Part shown: piece by piece, positions 2,931 to 51,190 of the stretch
Position numbering within the stretch: the stretch's first letter is position 1
Layout of the letters: every line of letters starts with the position of its first letter
NCBI GenBank assembly: GCA_935421135.1
Contig: OW285194.1
Location: 6,840,376 to 6,904,375, forward strand
From: Bugulina stolonifera
Lineage: Eukaryota; Bryozoa; Gymnolaemata; Cheilostomatida; Bugulidae
Direction: 5' to 3'
DNA length: 64,000 nucleotides
The notes under the pieces: generated by a model
What the model saw: the letters and a program-made list of their open reading frames with translations, nothing else
Databases searched by the model: none
What the model was told of the DNA's origin: nothing
Program-made: the position numbers and the translations under genes

Positions 2931-3350
2931 ATTATGGAAAGCATGACACAATTTTGGGATAAATTAGCAGACCAGAGAATACGATAGGCATTCCTTCTCA
3001 TTCATCTCATTTTCTAAAAGTCTTTGACTTGAAGTGGATAATAACTCACCTTAGTTGAGTCATGATACAATGTATAAGAGTATCCCAATGTTCACTGTTC
3101 CTAAAACAGTAGCACACATGTATGACACCAGACAGAAATTAATTACTGTACAATGGCTTATAATAGCGTTAGCTTATTTTAACGTTTTAACGAGTGGATC
3201 GAACTCGTTAAAATATAAATAGTATTAGTAAACTATAGTTAAGTTAATTTACGTATTGTTTTTATTAGCTGGAGCAACACTACTACAATCATGTAGTAAA
3301 GTATTACTGCGGTCGATTACAAGTATGATGGTTAGTTTTCAGCGTGAAAC

Positions 3351-24213: not shown

Positions 24214-27200
24214 ATGAAGCTACTAATTGCTGCTCTGGTGGTTCTGTGTAAGTTTATTAGTATAATATCTTGTCACAGATTCATTACTTACATGTACCTG
24301 TACATACAGTAGATCTTTCTACCATCAGACTGTTGTGTTAAAATCACATAAGTATTGTAATGGTTACGCACAGTCTTCTTTAACCACCTGACATTAGCTA
24401 CAATGTGTACCCATATGTATATCTGCCTGTATTCCTTGCTACTTGGTCGAATATTGTTTGTATACTTAAAGATGGCATTACTGAGTCATTATACTGGTTT
24501 TTATACCCATGTGAAGGGGCCCGACCTCTCAGAATTACCTGATATTCATTTTGTGTATGATTTAGATGAGTCTAAGCATATTTTGTATTAACCCGACCCA
24601 TTTTGAGTCGGGCATCGGGCTTCCGGCCGCCATATTGTTGCGCAATTTCCAGACGACCCTACGTCGTCTTTTCCCGACTCTACGTCGGCCTTTTTACCGG
24701 AACTTCCTCCGGAAGTTCTCTTCTATATAAAGGGCATTTCTTTACGTTTGTTGTCTCAGTTCTTGCTTGGATCTCAATAAAGACACCATCTATACTTAAT
24801 ATATACAGAGACTTTCACTTCGTAGATAGGTCATTCCAGTTGTTAAGGTCCTCGACCTTGCAACACGAACTGCCTACTAGGTCGGATCACTCTCTTTCTA
24901 AGTATAGTAAACAAGCATAACTCAGGATCACATGGGTCGTCTTTGGTAGTTCTTTGACTACTGACTCCGATCAATCTCTCATGTAATGAGAAGGCCTAGC
25001 ACCACTCATAGGCACTTCACTTTGGATCGGGAGTCGTCTTAGGACGACCTTACCAGAAACCAAAAATCATTACAGTATTATAGCTCCTTGAGAATGACAT
25101 TGTAGTAAATAAATGTGTAAACATATCACATAACAAGAAAAACATAGCATAATGATAAACAGTAGTACAATTATATGATTGTATAGTGCATCTACACACA
25201 CTACTTGAATGCATGCTATATGCGAAAGACAGTCTCAAAAGTACATTAGTTAGGCCAACATGTTTTATTAATCATTTAATAGTGAATATTGGTAAACTTT
25301 CAAGGGAATAAATCTCCTTACAAATTCAATATACAAATGTAATTGTACAACAATGTATGTATCTTTTGGAGAATATGTATCGGTACTATACATGCGCTGC
25401 ACTTTATGATAGCTTCTCACTCTTTCTCTTGTAGCATGGACACCTTTGGTTGAAGGTATGTATATGCAGACTATCAACTATTGCTTGTGCGAATCTGATC
25501 AAGTGAAATTAAACCTACTATCCTATTGGTTGAATTATGCTGATAAACTGTTATCCTATTTGTTGAATTCTGCAGATAAACTATTATCTTAGTGGTTGAA
25601 TAATGCAGATAAACTATTATCCTATTGGTTGAATTATGCTAAAAAATTGTTATCCTATTGGTTGAATTTTGTGGATGAACTATTGTCCTATTGGTCGAGT
25701 TGCTCTTATGACATAATACATGCACATGTTGTATGATAGTTTTTGAAAACACTGAATAACAAGGATAGAGTAATGCTAGTCCAAGTATTACTGTTTCATA
25801 ATGCTGTCATAAAGTGTCAAACTGCATCTAAACAAAACTTTTAAGTAGAAAAATAATAAAGCCTTACTTCTGGTAGTCTAGCGTTTTTTGTAGCATCAAA
25901 ATGTAAACATAGTCATTACCACCTTAGAAAAGTACAATGTAATAGCAACATAATATATAATCTGGCAAATAGAAGAACATTAAGCTTTGCATTCAATCAG
26001 AAATATTTGGTGTTATTAACACAATATTATCCTTAAGCAATAAATCATTAACCATCACTAACATATTCCAATAACTATGCTTACAAAACAATATGTATCT
26101 GCCACATGCATTAACAATAATTTACATGCCATTCCTTTATTGCTTTCAGGAATACAGAAACTGGCGATATCAGGTAAGTAAGTCATACATACATGCACTC
26201 CGAGACATATCTTACATCAGTCAATTGAGTCATAACTTATATCAGTCAACTGAGTCATAACTTACATCAGTCAATTGAGTCATAACTTACATCAGTCAAT
26301 TGAGTCATAACTTACATCAGTCAATTGAGTCATAACTTACATCAGTCAATTGAGTCATAACTTACATCAGTCAAACTGTTAAACAGTTCATACTCATTAG
26401 TAGTAGTATGGGATTACAATGAATCATATTCTAAAAGAAAAAATATAATCAGGAGCATGAAACATTACTGTGCTATTTCTAAAATGGTAATAAATATTGT
26501 TTAACTCATCTGTATATTTATAGCCATCGGCTATTTGAATATTGGGTAACCAAATAAGCAGATTTAGCTGCTAAGAACATACTGAAAGGTGTAGTTCTGT
26601 TATTATTTAAGGTGTCGAAGGTTCGACCCACTACCTTGACTACGTAGTCTCCCATGTGACAGATGGTGACTATGCAGAGGGTTCCAATGGTGGGAGTTTC
26701 TGCACTAAAGTAAGTCTACATTACTAGCAGCATTAGTTTATACATGTATGTTCAACACAGATTGCGCCTTGCATCTATTGCTAGGGATTACACAACCAGA
26801 ATGATAGTTTGTATAGCTGTTTAGAGTTAGGGATATGCAACGAGAGACATCAAGTAGTGAAACTTGCTTAATTCAAACTCCAAGAGACCACCATAATTGG
26901 TTTGAATTAAGCATGAGTTTGAATTGTAGGATCACCTCACTTAATTGAAGTCATTATATTATAGAGGTCAGCAGGGACCAAGGCTATTAGTTTGAACTAA
27001 CCAAGCTTTGAATTATCCAAGGCTGAATTAAGCAAGTTCCACTGTATTTTCCTTTTAGAAAGTTTTTTTTGTTCCATTGCTTTTTGTTTAGAAATGCAGT
27101 AAGACCTCTTGATTCTTTAACATCCGTGGTAACATTCAGGGTAAATTGATGAAATCTGAGGAAATACAGTATACAAATTATTAAATGCACCACCATCTAG

Positions 27201-30200
27201 AAACGATTAAATGTTTGCTCACAGTGATGGTTGTGAGCCCAGAAAGAGTTTTGCAGCCCAGCAGCGTATTTTGACATTTACTGGGATGAATGTTAATCAT
27301 GTATCTATTTCTGACTTATCATCACTTGGCTAGTTACAAAATAAATTTCAGTTTTGTAAATACCTTAAATTTGCACTTATATGTCAATAAAATTGATGTT
27401 TTGTGCTTATAATGACATATAATAGATGGTTTACCTACCCATAGGCTGAAACCTTCGGATTCACACTTTAAAGTTGAAATAGATCGATTTTGTTTCTGAA
27501 TTTCAATCACCTGATGGTGAATGATCTTTACCTCTGGTATGCATCACTGAATGTTAAAGTGTGTGGAGAACATAACTCCCAGTGGCATGAAAAACTCTGA
27601 GTAGCCAATCAATAGCATTCCTAACTTGTTGCTGTATGAGGGTCTCTTATAGATTTCCTCTAATCAATACTCTAGTTAAATTGATGAATAAAATAAAAGC
27701 AAACAAACGGATATACATGTACAATGTGCATGTTGAAGTAATTATAGGAATATCCATGTTGGGGTAATTTTTGTTACTTTGCTAACCATGTTTTAGGCAG
27801 GCGGCATGTATTTCATGCTGGACTTGGGAGAGTTTTATGAAGTTGACCATGTTGATATCTGGGGCAGAGACGAAACTACCACTTTCTATCGTAAGTCCTT
27901 ACGGTGATATACATGTACTATACAAGTAACTATTAAATGTAGCGCAGTGTGGACTGAGATGCAATAACCCTATTCAGTGAGTAAGCATTTTCAATGTAAT
28001 AAGTTAACAAATGTGGCCCATTCTGTCAGAATCAGACATTGAGAGGTTCACAAAATTGCAGCCAGGCATTATTTTATCAATCAGCAAACTTTTCCTTCTA
28101 CCAACCAATTCACATGCTTATAAGACATAGGAATATCTACAATAAGGATAACGAATTATCATTTATCAAAAGTTACTTGATGTAAATCATAGATGATTAG
28201 TGGTTATAGCTAGTGCTGCCTCCCCACTGATATTCGGTTTTCTGGAGGAATTTAATCAAACACCGGTACGATTCGGTGCATAAAAAATTTGCCGGTGTGT
28301 AACACCGAGGGTTCACACACCGTTTACATCGTTTGAAACCGAAACACCGTGCAGCACTAGTTATATCTCCCCGAAGTTGAACTTCACCGAACTTTTGTGG
28401 TCCCCCCGGCGTCTTATTCTGATAGCAAGGGTCACAAATGTTGAAGAACAAATTTCCTTCAAATGCTATGATTACCAGGATACAGCATTATTAATTAAGT
28501 ATTTCTGTGATGCTTTATTTCATGTGGCAGCGCCTGCCTAATTACCAGATGCATGTAATGACTGCATGTGCAGTTAAACAACTTTCAAGGTGCAAGACTT
28601 GGGAAATGCTCAGCCAACTGGAGTGACTTTATTGCAAGTTACAGCAATCAAAACAGCTAGTGTTTTGCTGAGAAAAGACGTCGTTTTATTTGCATGACTT
28701 GTAGGTTGCCTAATATTGACTGAGACGGATTGTATTCTGTAACACATTTTCTGTTACGATGGGCGAGGCATTAGTACAGATGCAATTGTATCTAAAATAT
28801 ACTAAATTTCTCTGGTCAGCTCTTATAACGTAATAGGTGGTGGTTGGAGTCCATTGTCTTTCTTAAATTTGAATTGATTTAAAATTGCTTCAGTAATGCC
28901 ATCCAAGTAATCATGTGAAATGCTAGATATCAACTGCAGTCATGTTCAGATATTTCTTTAGGACAAGATATGATATTATATTTGTCTATCACAGAGTAGC
29001 TCCTTCCTTGTAGTGGATCAGATGCAGAACTTAAAGATTACAGTTTCAAAATACGAATCATACATTGATGATGAGGCCTCTCTCTGTGTGTACAGAGATG
29101 GAGCACCTAGTGCTGGAGAGAATAGACCAGAAACATTCAGCTGTACCTCCACTATGGTTGGACGTTACGTTAAAGTCAGCATGGTGGATGCGTCTTCTGA
29201 TGAATTCTTTTGTTTGACAGAAGCTGAAGTTTATGGAGTTGAGTACACAGGTAAAGCGTGGCATTCATCTTCAAGTGTTGAGTCTTGTTTTAAATCATTT
29301 ATTAATTTGATCTCCTAGGCATGCAATGAACTTTTCCTCTCCCTTTTTCATTATTTTGCTGTAAATTAAAAACCTGTGTGACAAACTATAAACTTTCATT
29401 TTCGTTTATGATTTCAGGTAGAGCAGAGATAGCTCCAGTCAGTAAGTATTGTGATTACAGCTATATCTATACATATTATGTTTAGTAATACACGCTTGAG
29501 CACAATTTATTGTGTTATGCCATGGTTAGGTATTGGAGCATTGCGAGTTGTTTGCATAAAGTTATTTATCTGGGACAGTATTGTCCCAATCAATGTTTTT
29601 AGACAGACATGTACATGTAAATGCCTTAATCACTTTATTACTCCGTTAGCAGCATGTTCATCAAAAGACAGTTTTAAACCTTTTTTACATCAACTCTGAG
29701 CGTTGCTAGCTGAAAGCGCTGCCAATGCCAGGCTGATGGTTGAATTAATTGTTAAAGACATTTCTTTCTGATTCTGAAGAAGGAAAAGGTTTTCGCTACC
29801 TGTGAGGTATGCCATGGTTGTTAATCTCTAAGATGATATATGGTAATGGTAATTAAATATACAGTACAGTCATGTGGTTGCACAATTTTGTTTACGCTTT
29901 CATAGGCGTAACTGGTTCTGAACACTATCTCGATTACGAAGTCTCCTACCTAATAGACGGTAACTATGCTGAGGGATCCAATGCCAAGACCTTTTGCACT
30001 AAGGTAGACTACTTATAAAGTAAATTACAATGATTAACCACGACAGAGCTAGTTCAGTTTTTCACGCGCTTGATGTACATGTTGTATGTATACCACATCA
30101 ACTAGTTTGGAATAATAATATAAGCACATACCACTGCTTGATAGTTCTTCTTTGCTCATATAGGACCAGTATTCCATTAGCTCTATCATAATGTACACTA

Positions 30201-33200
30201 TATACACGTGTATGGTACACATATTATGTAACTGCCAACAAGTTGTTATACTTTAGAATGACACAAGATACGCTCTGATTGACTTGGGAGATAACTACGA
30301 AGTTTTGGGAGTTGTCATCTGGGGGAGAGATGAGAGTACAACTTTCTACTGTAAGTTAATAGAACACGTGTGTTATATGTGCAATCGAAGCTTGTTTATA
30401 AACTCATGCAATCAATGATTGGGTACGCAAGAATCTGTGAGCTGTGGTAGAACAAGATTTTTCTGGGTGGTGCAGCTCTATTAGGCAATGCGTAGCAACG
30501 GTTCACCAGGGGCCAGAGCAAATAGAAATGTACCTTAGGGGCATTGTTGTAAACTTACAGTAGAGCCAATAACAGCTAGTGCAGTGAAATTTCCCATTGG
30601 TACACTATTTTTGTATTCCAACACCAGACACAACTTCAACATGTTCCTTATGCAATTTTGTTAAAAAAATTGAAAAAAAAATTTAATAAAGTGAAAAATA
30701 AGAAAGTTTTGTGGTTGCTATGGGAGATTCTGCCATATTGGACTTTGATATTTTTTTTTACAATCTGAAGCAATTTCAATGAATCTGGGTTTTTTTTTTT
30801 TGTTCTGCATAAGCATAATTTTCTGTGTACTGAAGCAAAGCTAACATCGTGTCATCAATTTGAAATGCATTTTTAGGATTTAAGGGAAGTTTTTTAGCAG
30901 TTATTAGATTACGGAGAAGGTCACAGCAGTGAGCCCGACAGCGAGTCAGCTGAGAATGATGACTCACAACTATTAATCCTAGTACCAGCTAATTTCTCAG
31001 CTAATCGGCTAAATGTAGAGTTGGTTCTACTAGTGACTCTCACCAAAGGCAAACAAACCATTGTTACTTTTTAATAGTATACCTGGCATCTTAATAATTT
31101 CGATTTTTTATTTACTGTTATTTATCCGGTGCTCATGTTGAAAAAGTTTTTTTTCTTACTAGAATAATATGATTATGTTTTTTGCATTCCTCATACACTT
31201 CTGACATGAATAGGCTGTTACCTAATGACCTATAGTTTGATGAAACACCCGTTGCTATGGACCAAACAATAATCATAGATCACTTCGAATAGGTCGACTT
31301 TAACCCTCAATTTCTCCATCATTGTCTTTTCACAGTTCCTGTAGAGGTTCGAATTCAAACTATTATAGGTTTGGTTAGAATTATGCTAGAATGAAAATAA
31401 AAGCACTATTAGAATCAGCAGAATCTATAGAACGACAAAGATTCAATAACTCCAAATGTCCTGACATGCCCCTAAGGTACATTTTCATTTGCTCTGGCTC
31501 CAACCAACAATCTGTTTTTTAATAAATTATAATAGTATTGGAAACCATTTATCTAATATTAACCAATCGAAACAGAGTTCCATGATGCTGAAGACGAAAG
31601 ACCAATATGTCGGTCATCGCATAAGTGAGATAGCCTAAAACAGGGCTCTAAAACGAGGCTCTGTAGGCCGAAAACGAATAATCAGTCTCTAGTGTAGCCG
31701 ACCCTTTACCCTATTCAACTACTACTTAATACCTTATTCCAGAAACACCATACTACAGAAAATTGAGAGCAATAAGCATATTCGATTATTAAAAAAACTT
31801 TTCACCATTGAATTCTTCTGGGAAGGTGTCACCTGAAAGAGATGCAGCACACGTGCAGCATTAAATTATTGATACTATTTTTTGGCTGCTTCGAAATAAT
31901 CTATTTCTTAGGAGTTGTGTTCTTGTTCGCTGCATGATTAAGAAGTGTTATTTTCTAGTTGACAATATTAACATTCAGTAACAAATACTACAATAAGTAA
32001 AGGTTATCCAACCTGTGGTGACTAAGTTTCAATATTTAATTTTTATTCTGGTGGTTTTCATTTATCAGTCATAATTTGTCACTATTAAGCCAACAGATAA
32101 ATGAAAATTTGCGATACTTGTCAAATTTTCATTTATTTTGTAATTTGCCAAACAAAGGTAAGTCAATGAAATTTGTAATACATATATAAGGTAAGATCAT
32201 AGAAGTCATGGAGGTTAGCTGATTAGTTATTCCTAGATGGTGATTCTAGGGCAACTTTTAAAATTTTTTACTGCAACTACCAAAACTTTAACAATTTACC
32301 CTGAATGTTCAGGAACTGTAAAAGTTTATTTTTTTGTTTTTGTGATCATAGTTCTTTCCTACAAGGAGAGTATTTCTCGTGTAAATGTACTACCAGGTAT
32401 ATTTATTGGATCGATGATCAGCCACTCGTATTAACTGTATACAACTATCTACTCTTTCAGTGGATCAGATGCAGAATCTAAAGATAACAGTCTCAACTTC
32501 AGAATCAGACCTAGATTCAGATTCCTCACTCTGTATGTACAGAAATGGAGCACCCAGTGCTGGAGAGAATAGACCAGAAGAGTTAGACTGTACATCTACT
32601 ATGATTGGACGTTACGTTAAAGTCAGCATGGTGGATGTGTCTTCTGATCAATTCATGTGTCTTGCCGAGATTGAAGTCTATGGAACCGGCAATGGTAGGA
32701 CATTAATTATTTTGTTTTCTTTGCATAACTGGTCTACTTTCAGGAACAAACTCCATACATACAATACATGCATAATGTGTAAGTGTGGCTATCTATAAAG
32801 CAGCTGGTACCTTGTGACTGCATATTTATATACATGTAGATAATTATATGAATTACTCTATTAGTAAACACCACAATCCAATTGCTACCAAGATATTATC
32901 ACATATCCTGGAATTATTCAGCTAACTACTAATGGGATATTTATAATGTAAAGATGAGGTTCAGGGGTCAGAGCTCACCACAGTCCAGACTAACTGGGCA
33001 AGCATAGCTGGCAGTTAAAATTGTAATTTGGCCTAGTTTGTCAATGGAACGTGCTATGGTGTTCACTGATAGGAATCGAACTTCACATTTCTAGTAATCT
33101 GATTGGTTGAAATATCAATTGTTCTCACTTTCAGGTCCTACGACTGGTGGTTGTCCAAGCACCTCCGCCTGCAAGAAAGCATGCAAGAAGAAGTATTTTG

Positions 33201-33283
33201 CTTTGGTCCAAAAAGGTGTATGCAGGAGCAATGGAACCCGCTGCTACTGCAAATTTCAACCTTTTGGAGGCAAATATTTGTAA
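24214..33283 (+). CDS. Secreted double F5/8C (fucolectin-like) lectin with C-terminal CS-alpha-beta tail
   Basis: Eleven exons join in phase to 368 residues: 24,214-24,247; 25,435-25,455; 26,150-26,173; 26,612-26,709; 27,797-27,890; 29,014-29,250; 29,418-29,441; 29,906-30,003; 30,257-30,350; 32,461-32,694; 33,135-33,283. Exons 1-2 give a signal peptide. Exons 4-6 (residues about 27-168) and 8-10 (about 178-320) encode two galactose-binding-fold domains with identical phase and near-identical size (98, 94 and 237/234 bases). Hallmarks are VTDGDYAEGS, MLDLGEFYEV, DIWGRDE and GRYVKVSMVD then EAEVYG, as in fucolectin/tachylectin-4 and F5/8C families. Exon 11 adds six cysteines (C-x5-C-x3-C-x12-C-x6-C-x-C, Gly-Val-Cys at the fourth) rich in Lys/Arg, then stops. 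Likely a secreted sugar-binding defence or effector protein that delivers a cationic peptide module. Fold assignment is strong; function is inferred. Confidence 0.85.
24510..25071. mobile_element. LTR-like segment in lectin intron 1
   Basis: A GC-richer block with a TATA box (CTATATAAAGGGC near 24,724), a downstream AATAAAG (near 24,776) and recurring GACGACC/GTCGTC words, as in the solo LTR at 17.7-18.3 kb. It starts near TGTGAAGGGGCCCGACC and ends near CATTACA. No target duplication was found, so the ends are uncertain and it may be old. Confidence 0.45.
25521..25690. repeat. 33-base minisatellite in lectin intron 2
   Basis: About five diverged units of roughly 33 bases (TATCCTATTGGTTGAAT.. 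core), each with an ATTGG box. Confidence 0.8.
26210..26375. repeat. 25-base minisatellite in lectin intron 3
   Basis: Six to seven nearly perfect copies of a 25-base unit containing CAGTCAATTGAGTCATAA. Confidence 0.92.
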
Positions 33284-49029: not shown

Positions 49030-49713
49030 TAATGTGACTCCCATTAGCACTAGTAGGAGTAGCAGGGGTAGTAGCAGTAGCGGCGGTAGTTTCAGGGTTA
49101 TAGCATCAACAGTAGTAGTAGTAGTGGTAGCAGTGGCAGTAGTGGTAGCAGTGGCAGTAGTGGTAGCAGTTGTAGTAGCGGCACTGGTAGCTGCAGTGGT
49201 AGTATTAGTAGAAGTAGTAGAAGCAGCAGCAGTGGCCATAGTAGGAGCAGTAACAGCAGCACTAGTATGAAGAGCAATAGTAATAGTAGGAGGAACGGTA
49301 GAGGCAAGAAAAGCAACAGTAGCTGTTGTAGTAGCTGTAGCAGTAGCTCTAGCAGTAGCCCTAGTAGCAGCTATAGTAGCAGCTGTGGTAGTCGCTGTAG
49401 TAGCTTTAGTAGTGGTTATAGTAGTGGCTCTGGTAGTTATAGCTGTAGTAGTAACTCTAGTAGTACCTGGTGTAGTGGCTGTAGTAGTATGTGTAGCAGT
49501 GACAATTGTAGTAGCTCTAGGAACAGCTCTAGTAGTAGCTGTAGTAGTAGTAGTAGTAGTAGTAGCAGCAGCAGTAGTAGTAGTAGCAGCAATTATGGCA
49601 GTAGTAGTAGTAGTAATAGTAGTAGCAATAGTAGTAGTAGTAATGGCAGCAGCAGTAGTGGCAGTAGTTGTTGCAGTAGTAGTAGTACTAGTAGTAGTAG
49701 TAGCAGTAGTAGT

Positions 49714-49744
<31 letters not shown>

Positions 49745-50255
49745 ATAGCAGCAGCAGCAGTAGTTGCAGTAGTAGCAGCAGCAATATTAGCAGCAGCAGT
49801 AGCAGCTGCAATAGTGCCAGTAGTAGTAGCAGCAGTAGTAGTAGCAGCAGCAGTAGTTGTAGCAGCAGCAGTAGTTGTAGCAGCAGCAGTAGTAGTAGCA
49901 GCAGCAGTAGTAGCAGCAGCAGCAGTAGTAGTAGTAGCAGAAGCAGTAGTAGTAGTAGTAGTATCAACAGCAGCAATAGTAGTAGTAGCAGCAGTAGCCT
50001 AGTAGTAGTAGTATCAGCTGTAGTAGTAGTAGCAGCAGCAGTAGTAGTAGCAGCAGCAGTAGTAGTAGTAGCAGCAATTATAGCAGTAGTACTGGTAGTA
50101 ATAGTAGTAGCAGTAGTAGTAGTTGTAGTAATAGCAGCAGCAGTAGTTGTTGTAGTAGTAGTAGTACTAGTAGTAGTAGTTGTAGTAATAGTAGTAGCAG
50201 TAGTAGTAGCAGCAGTAGCAGTAGTAGTAGTAGCAGTAGTAGCAGTAGTAGTAGT

Positions 50256-50293
<38 letters not shown>

Positions 50294-50688
50294 TAGTAGT
50301 TGCAGCAGTAATTGCAGTAGTAGTTGTAGTAGTAGGCCCTACGTGTAGCAGTGGCAATTGTAGTAGCTCTAGGAACAGCTCTAGTAGTAGCTGTAGTAGT
50401 AGTAGTAGCAGCAGCAGCAGTAGTAATAATAGTAGCAGCAGCAGTAGTAGCAGCAGTAGTAGTAGTAGTAGTAGCATCAGCAGTAGTAGTAGTAGCAGCA
50501 ATTATAGCAGTAGTACTGGTAGTAATAGTAGTAGTAGTAGTAGTAGTAGTAGTAATAGCAGCAGCAGTAGTTGTTGTAGTAGTAGTAGTACTAGTAGTAG
50601 TAGTTGTAGTAATAGTAGTAGCAGTAGTAGTAGCAGCAGTAGCAGTAGTAGTAGTAGCAGTAGTAGCAGTAGTAGCAGTAGTAGTAGT

Positions 50689-50749
<61 letters not shown>

Positions 50750-50880
50750 CCAGCAGTAATTGCAGTAGTAGTTGTAGTAGTAGTAGTACTAGTAGTGGTA
50801 GTGGTAGTAGTAGCAGTAGTAGTAGTAGTAGTAGCAGTAGTAGTAGTAGCAGTAGTAGCAGTAGTAGCAGTAGTAGTAGT

Positions 50881-50952
<72 letters not shown>

Positions 50953-51190
50953 TGTAGTGGTAGTAGTAGTAATGGTAGTGGTGGTGGTAGTATTAGTAGT
51001 AGCAGCAGCAGCAATAGTGGCAGTAGTAGTTGTAGCAGTAGTACTGGTGGTGATAGTAGTCCTATGTAGTCGGAAGAGAGATGAGGCGGAATAATGGTAG
51101 TAGTCTTCATAGTAGGAAGTAGAAGTGAGGCAGAGCTGCAGCACCAGCAGCAGTATAGTGGTAGCACCTCCAGTAGTATTCATCGCAGTA
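49030..51190. repeat. Giant (TAG/CAG)n imperfect trinucleotide array
   Basis: About 2.1 kb made almost only of AGT and AGC triplets with rare GGT, ATT and TGT variants. Internal blocks repeat at higher order: the segment around 50,360-50,700 echoes 49,510-49,740. Because the phase is kept over hundreds of triplets, all frames that avoid TAG stay open and read as poly-Ser, poly-Val/Ala, poly-Leu or poly-Thr. None has a start or splice context, so I do not call a protein. Confidence 0.95.

Follow-up and report, generated by a model that had tools for sequence, protein, structure and literature searches.

The 64,000-nucleotide (nt) stretch of Bugulina stolonifera DNA analysed here (GenBank assembly GCA_935421135.1, contig OW285194.1, positions 6,840,376 to 6,904,375 of the forward strand; the window) lies on chromosome 8 (contig C8). 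At 24,214–33,283 on its + strand it carries a gene in which two lectin-type domains are followed by a six-cysteine tail resembling cysteine-stabilized alpha-beta (CS-alpha-beta) peptides. The gene model was rebuilt by hand from the sequence, using the exons of a first-pass annotation made from the letters alone. That annotation had the eleven exons joining in phase, and this was confirmed: the joined exons give 1,107 nt including the stop codon, are open throughout and encode 368 amino acids, with GT...AG borders at 10 of 10 introns. Introns 4 and 8 are in phase 0 and the remaining eight in phase 1. A start of exon 6 after the AG before 28,995 was rejected, as it broke the frame; 29,014 is required. 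The predicted chain begins with a hydrophobic N terminus (MKLLIAALVVLSWTPLVEG), judged by eye to be a signal peptide, continues with two F5/8C domains that share one exon layout (98, 94, and 237 or 234 nt) and ends with the 49-residue tail encoded by exon 11 (Table 1). It is considered highly probable that the lectin-CS-alpha-beta fusion gene is real. Tandem arrays lie in introns 2 and 3 (window positions 25510–25695 and 26202–26374), with units of 33 and 25 bases.

Table 1. Exons of the lectin-type gene, in window coordinates
Feature	Content	Position	Strand	Basis
Exon 1	Start codon and signal-peptide-like hydrophobic start (MKLLIAALVVL)	24214..24247	+	Gene model; signal by eye
Exon 2	21-nt micro-exon, closes signal-like region	25435..25455	+	Gene model
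Exon 3	24 nt	26150..26173	+	Gene model
Exon 4	F5/8C domain 1, first third	26612..26709	+	Gene model, Pfam, paralogues
Exon 5	F5/8C domain 1, middle	27797..27890	+	Gene model, Pfam, paralogues
Exon 6	F5/8C domain 1, last part	29014..29250	+	Gene model, Pfam, genome search
Exon 7	Linker micro-exon separating the two domains	29418..29441	+	Gene model
Exon 8	F5/8C domain 2, first third	29906..30003	+	Gene model, Pfam, paralogues
Exon 9	F5/8C domain 2, middle	30257..30350	+	Gene model, Pfam, paralogues
Exon 10	F5/8C domain 2, last part	32461..32694	+	Gene model, Pfam, genome search; donor position and phase conserved in four paralogous loci
Exon 11	CS-alpha-beta tail (residues 320–368) and stop codon	33135..33283	+	Gene model, profiles, paralogues

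Tail exons at five lectin-type loci

The 235-Mb assembly (27 contigs) was searched with the tail, which identified three places: the window itself and two sites on chromosome 10, at 13.5076 Mb (80%) and 13.5300 Mb (56%). The first of these tails (C10a) lies behind two lectin domains and the second (C10b) behind three, with a threonine run preceding the tail. A fourth tail (C10c; chromosome 10, 14.8351 Mb) was identified in a scan of 30 lectin loci, which covered the + strand of each and is uninformative for minus-strand lectin loci. A search with this fourth tail returned a fifth (C10d; chromosome 10, 14.8086 Mb, minus strand) that is 73% alike to it. Weaker matches were obtained at C2:8170899 (E value, 0.10) and C7:6309886 (E value, 1.03), and CS-alpha-beta-like matches at loci L016 and L025 were discarded as simple-repeat artefacts.

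At all five loci the tail exon follows a lectin-type exon by 241 to 550 nt, across an intron with GT...AG borders and phase 1 on both sides. The fusion, which was unfamiliar to the first-pass annotation, is not a single case, being carried by five loci in the same genome. Because the last lectin exon of the fourth locus is only 53% identical to that of the window, two predicted lectin subfamilies share the fusion architecture. As evidence for fusion, the four further candidate loci are stronger than the argument from chance, in which 60 simulated windows, matched to the real one in first-order composition, together held a relaxed six-cysteine pattern as often as the real window alone, namely once.

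Lectin-type exons are more widely distributed. At least 55 matches with E values of ≤0.001 were identified, including two in the window, two and three in the C10a and C10b genes, respectively, and 11 in two clusters at 14.81 to 14.83 Mb. On chromosome 11, near 8.2 to 8.7 and 11.9 to 12.2 Mb, many weak matches (30 to 38% identity) lie densely together, which suggests a large family of putative lectin-type genes.

The genome also harbors genes for CS-alpha-beta peptides that stand alone; the pattern is matched by 15 segments, spread over 14 loci. Thirteen of the 14 have a hydrophobic start with a phase-1 donor within 1.5 kb upstream, under loose criteria, and starts such as MRLSIL..., MNFK... 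and MNINSFYYAVAVGI... recur among related loci. The peptide-bearing exons that were read by eye begin in phase 1. Three peptides, at C8:10208838, C8:10292007 and C8:10296415, are very acidic (one with a net charge of −14), which sets them apart from typical, cationic defensins; other peptides of this group are neutral or basic.

These genes bear on the alternative that two genes were joined in the model, with the lectin gene ending in intron 10 and exon 11 belonging, as second exon, to an independent defensin gene. The stand-alone genes do own a matching second exon in the same phase, and exon 10 may read through 35 codons past its donor before reaching a stop. However, a tail exon trails a lectin exon at similarly short distance and in matching phase five times over. 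Furthermore, 13 of the 14 stand-alone loci have a candidate signal-type first exon with a phase-1 donor upstream, whereas no separate exon of this kind was detected in any of the five introns between lectin exon and tail, although this comparison is uneven, setting introns of 241 to 550 nt against 1.5 kb of upstream sequence and counting some starts, such as the mutually dissimilar ones of L045 and L046, that look like chance. An ATG in the C10c intron that reads unspliced into the tail is probably also a chance occurrence. Two separate genes are regarded as highly improbable.

Identity of the lectin-type domains and the tail

Pfam analysis of the whole chain identified two stretches each of the F5/8C families PF22633 (51 bits; curated cut-off, 27.8) and PF00754 (44.8 bits; curated cut-off, 28.2). 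The closest solved relatives are F-type lectins, namely striped-bass FBP32 (3cqo; E value, 0.0022) and 1k12 (E value, 0.34, and 0.0031 in another search). Each domain carries four cysteines; when aligned by eye, three coincide directly with cysteines of 1k12 and the fourth lies within two residues of one. Two motifs are given for F-type lectins in excerpts of PMC5712786, HX24RXDX4(R/K) for fucose and h2DGx for the cation. Possible counterparts of the cation motif, VTDGD and LIDGN, were found with a widened residue set, and neither fits the strict V/A/I pair. Residues 19 to 319 have a net charge of −32. The domains are F-type-lectin-like in predicted fold and are not filed as F-type lectins; from the fold, a sugar is the likely ligand of the lectin part, with fucose not indicated.

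In the tail, the cysteines are spaced C-x5-C-x3-C-x12-C-x6-C-x-C, with the CxxxC ... CxC frame, exactly as the first-pass annotation had described, and the many Lys/Arg residues it had mentioned amount to 10, with no Asp or Glu and a net charge of +10. All six cysteines are retained in the five fusion tails. The gamma-core GxC (G27-x-C29) is invariant among them and present in >90% of 17 family rows, of which the stand-alone members were chosen with the cysteine pattern, so that their cysteine invariance is partly due to selection of the rows. Searches of solved structures gave increasingly clear results as the profile grew: with three tails the best E value was 0.21 and two of six matches fell outside the CS-alpha-beta superfamily, with five tails all eight matches were defensins or, in one case, a scorpion toxin (best E value, 0.013), and with the 17-member family the best E value was 9.7e−7. 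When the cysteines were fixed and the other residues shuffled, none of 12 controls found CS-alpha-beta structures. On the whole chain, Pfam placed the tail only below threshold, in Gamma-thionin (E value, 0.0049) and Toxin_3.

A structure prediction of residues 320 to 368 had been proposed as a check on the first-pass annotation. The AlphaFold2 single-sequence model has a helix and two strands (H9–19, E26–32 and E35–41) at moderate confidence (mean pLDDT, 73.5; pTM, 0.43). A possible N-glycosylation site, N-G-T, lies between the two predicted strands and is also present in C10a. Taken with the profile searches and their shuffled control and with the paralogues, the model upholds the CS-alpha-beta assignment proposed for the tail, which is very probably correct.

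The two halves thus resemble known systems to different extents. Like the tandem domains here, those of F-type lectins commonly occur in series, and mosaic F-type lectins with other domains are known; the partners named in excerpts of PMC5712786 are C-type lectin, pentraxin, CCP, transmembrane and FA58C domains, with no defensin among them. With the CS-alpha-beta peptides (invertebrate, plant and fungal defensins, ASABF and scorpion toxins) the tail shares the six-cysteine spacing with CxxxC and CxC, the GxC, the predicted helix and two strands, and profile similarity, whereas those peptides are small and stand alone and the domain described here forms the end of a lectin-type protein, encoded by its final exon. 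Sponges are known to have CS-alpha-beta peptides, and the ASABF-type defence peptide of Suberites domuncula likewise comes from a sessile filter feeder, but is a stand-alone peptide of 64 residues, and ASABF has eight cysteines rather than six (excerpts of PMC3210614). A review of CS-alpha-beta peptides across animals contains, in the excerpts available, no mention of bryozoans or lectins (PMC5116183).

Database searches gave little beyond this. The whole chain matched a single, distant metagenome protein in the protein collection (24% identity; E value, 2.1e−9), the 17-row tail alignment matched none of that collection at an E value of ≤1, and no NCBIfam family was found. Among open-licence PMC titles and abstract beginnings, searched for lectin-defensin fusions and for bryozoan defensins or lectins in immunity, no such fusion was described, and no report of CS-alpha-beta defence peptides in Bryozoa came up. 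The terms lectin, defensin, immun-, antimicrobial and toxin were absent from the searched main text of the zooid transcriptome paper of B. stolonifera. The fusion is a new combination of two known kinds of domain, recurrent in one genome.

Other features of the window and the assembly

Ten long open reading frames elsewhere in the window matched no Pfam family at an E value of ≤0.01, and no Rfam family was found in the window at gathering scores. An approximately 2-kb tandem array of AGT/TAG-type triplets occupies positions 49045 to 51043, with long low-complexity frames on both strands. Among the small contigs, C26 (45,411 bases) and C12 (21,748 bases) carry long COX1-like frames of 702 and 663 codons, respectively, with TGA read through and with insertions. 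These two contigs look less like bryozoan mitochondrial DNA than like the linear mitochondrial genome of an epibiont, for example a ciliate. In mitochondrial contig C27 (L062 and L063), AGA and AGG fit Ser at conserved places by our own reading, and cytochrome b is seemingly split over two frames near 3,056 to 3,132. This contig has 14,440 bases and 31.1% G+C, the same as given in excerpts of the genome note (PMC10213821).

Possible function and origin of the fusion

The reading that we somewhat favor is that of a tethered, lectin-guided effector of the defensin type. Within one secreted chain, the two tandem F5/8C domains would bind a surface ligand, probably a glycan, of microbes or other cells, and the C-terminal CS-alpha-beta domain would stay tethered and act on the bound surface, with binding raising the local dose of the defensin-type domain. 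Tethering is proposed because no basic cleavage site was seen between the lectin part and the tail, and a defence role because the relatives of the tail are defensins and secreted peptides encoded on their own.

The charges of the two parts invite other explanations. In known pro-defensins, acidic and basic charges are balanced between the pro-region and the peptide, and the −32 of the lectin part against the +10 of the tail resembles this balance; the lectin part could accordingly be a carrier or acidic pro-region from which a protease frees the peptide on need. Such release is decidedly unlikely, as inspection by eye of the stretch from domain 2 to the tail of the window gene, and of the Thr-rich linker of C10b, revealed no furin-like basic site. 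The same opposite charges could promote internal pairing, in which case the tail would be scaffold or ballast, a disulfide knot capping the chain, joining subunits or balancing the acidic lectin part with no killing involved. Two of the five tails are weakly cationic (+4 and +1), in keeping with this; against it, related secreted peptides exist in the genome on their own, where there is no lectin to cap. A purely structural tail is considered unlikely.

Finally, the tail could target ion channels or receptors of animal cells, concentrated by the lectin part on predators, foulers or neighbours. Its fold is common to scorpion toxins, tamapin entries account for eight of the 16 structural matches listed, spanning all or nearly all of the tamapin chain, and a sponge peptide of the superfamily is toxic to a snail (excerpt of PMC3210614). 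However, the five-tail profile is nearer to plant defensins, and the fold itself is silent on the target, leaving this explanation a slim prospect.

Several points weigh against the preferred reading of a tethered, lectin-guided effector. Splicing of exon 10 to exon 11 is a prediction from the sequence and its paralogues. In the C10a gene (C10:13502057-13507715; L004), the second lectin domain is interrupted in its first exon by an in-frame stop, and this copy may be inactive or allelic. The acidic lectin part could mask the tail, and the tails are not uniformly cationic, with net charges of +10, +9, +4, +5 and +1. The tail model had no significant Foldseek match (best E value, 1.7), the top match being nematode ASABF (2d56). 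The tail alone scored under the cut-off of Gamma-thionin (PF00304, plant defensins), at 22.1 versus 25.1 bits (E value, 0.00018), and was not assigned to this family because the score is below the curated cut-off; across the genome, no match to PF00304 exceeded it. In the single protein collection that was searched, no protein of the same architecture from another source turned up. The ratio of nonsynonymous to synonymous rates (dN/dS) of the tail is moderately below 1, at 0.38 between the window and its nearest copy and at 0.44 and 0.65 against or between others; these are point estimates, as is the value of 0.23 for the last lectin exon. Lastly, neither domain contains the fucose motif, and fucose recognition is unsupported for this reason. 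At the aligned places of the motif, with the fucose-binding residues being those we take 1k12 to have, His is replaced by Lys, the first Arg is retained and the second Arg is replaced by Gln. The name fucolectin-like in the first-pass annotation is consequently apt for the fold, for which FBP32 and 1k12 are the best relatives, and not for the sugar.

As to origin, a defensin-type gene of two exons with a phase-1 intron would most likely have contributed its last exon, placed behind lectin exons ending in phase 1, a join made easy because phase 1 occurs on both sides, and the fusion would subsequently have been duplicated. The stand-alone genes are a likely source of the exon, by exon shuffling. 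When the window gene is compared with its nearest copy, 126 of 144 positions of the tail exon (87.5%) are identical, as are 336 of 417 aligned positions of intron 10 (80.6%) and 205 of 266 aligned positions after the stop (77.1%). Trees are too weakly supported to distinguish one origin of the fusion from several, with long branches meeting and only one of 14 inner branches well supported in the tail tree; in the lectin-exon tree, six of 27 were well supported.

Recognition, by lectins, and killing, by defensins, normally reside on separate proteins. Tentatively, and with slightly less than even confidence, the loci could represent a bryozoan family of natural lectin-guided defensins. Such secreted proteins would combine a tethered CS-alpha-beta warhead with at least two and perhaps up to six lectin-type domains, joined in phase 1, and their genes would have been duplicated and come to differ in linker, charge and number of domains. 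If true, this would add CS-alpha-beta defence peptides to what is known of Bryozoa and provide a clear example of a defensin exon shuffled in phase 1, and a gene family uniting recognition with killing would amount to a natural targeted antimicrobial.
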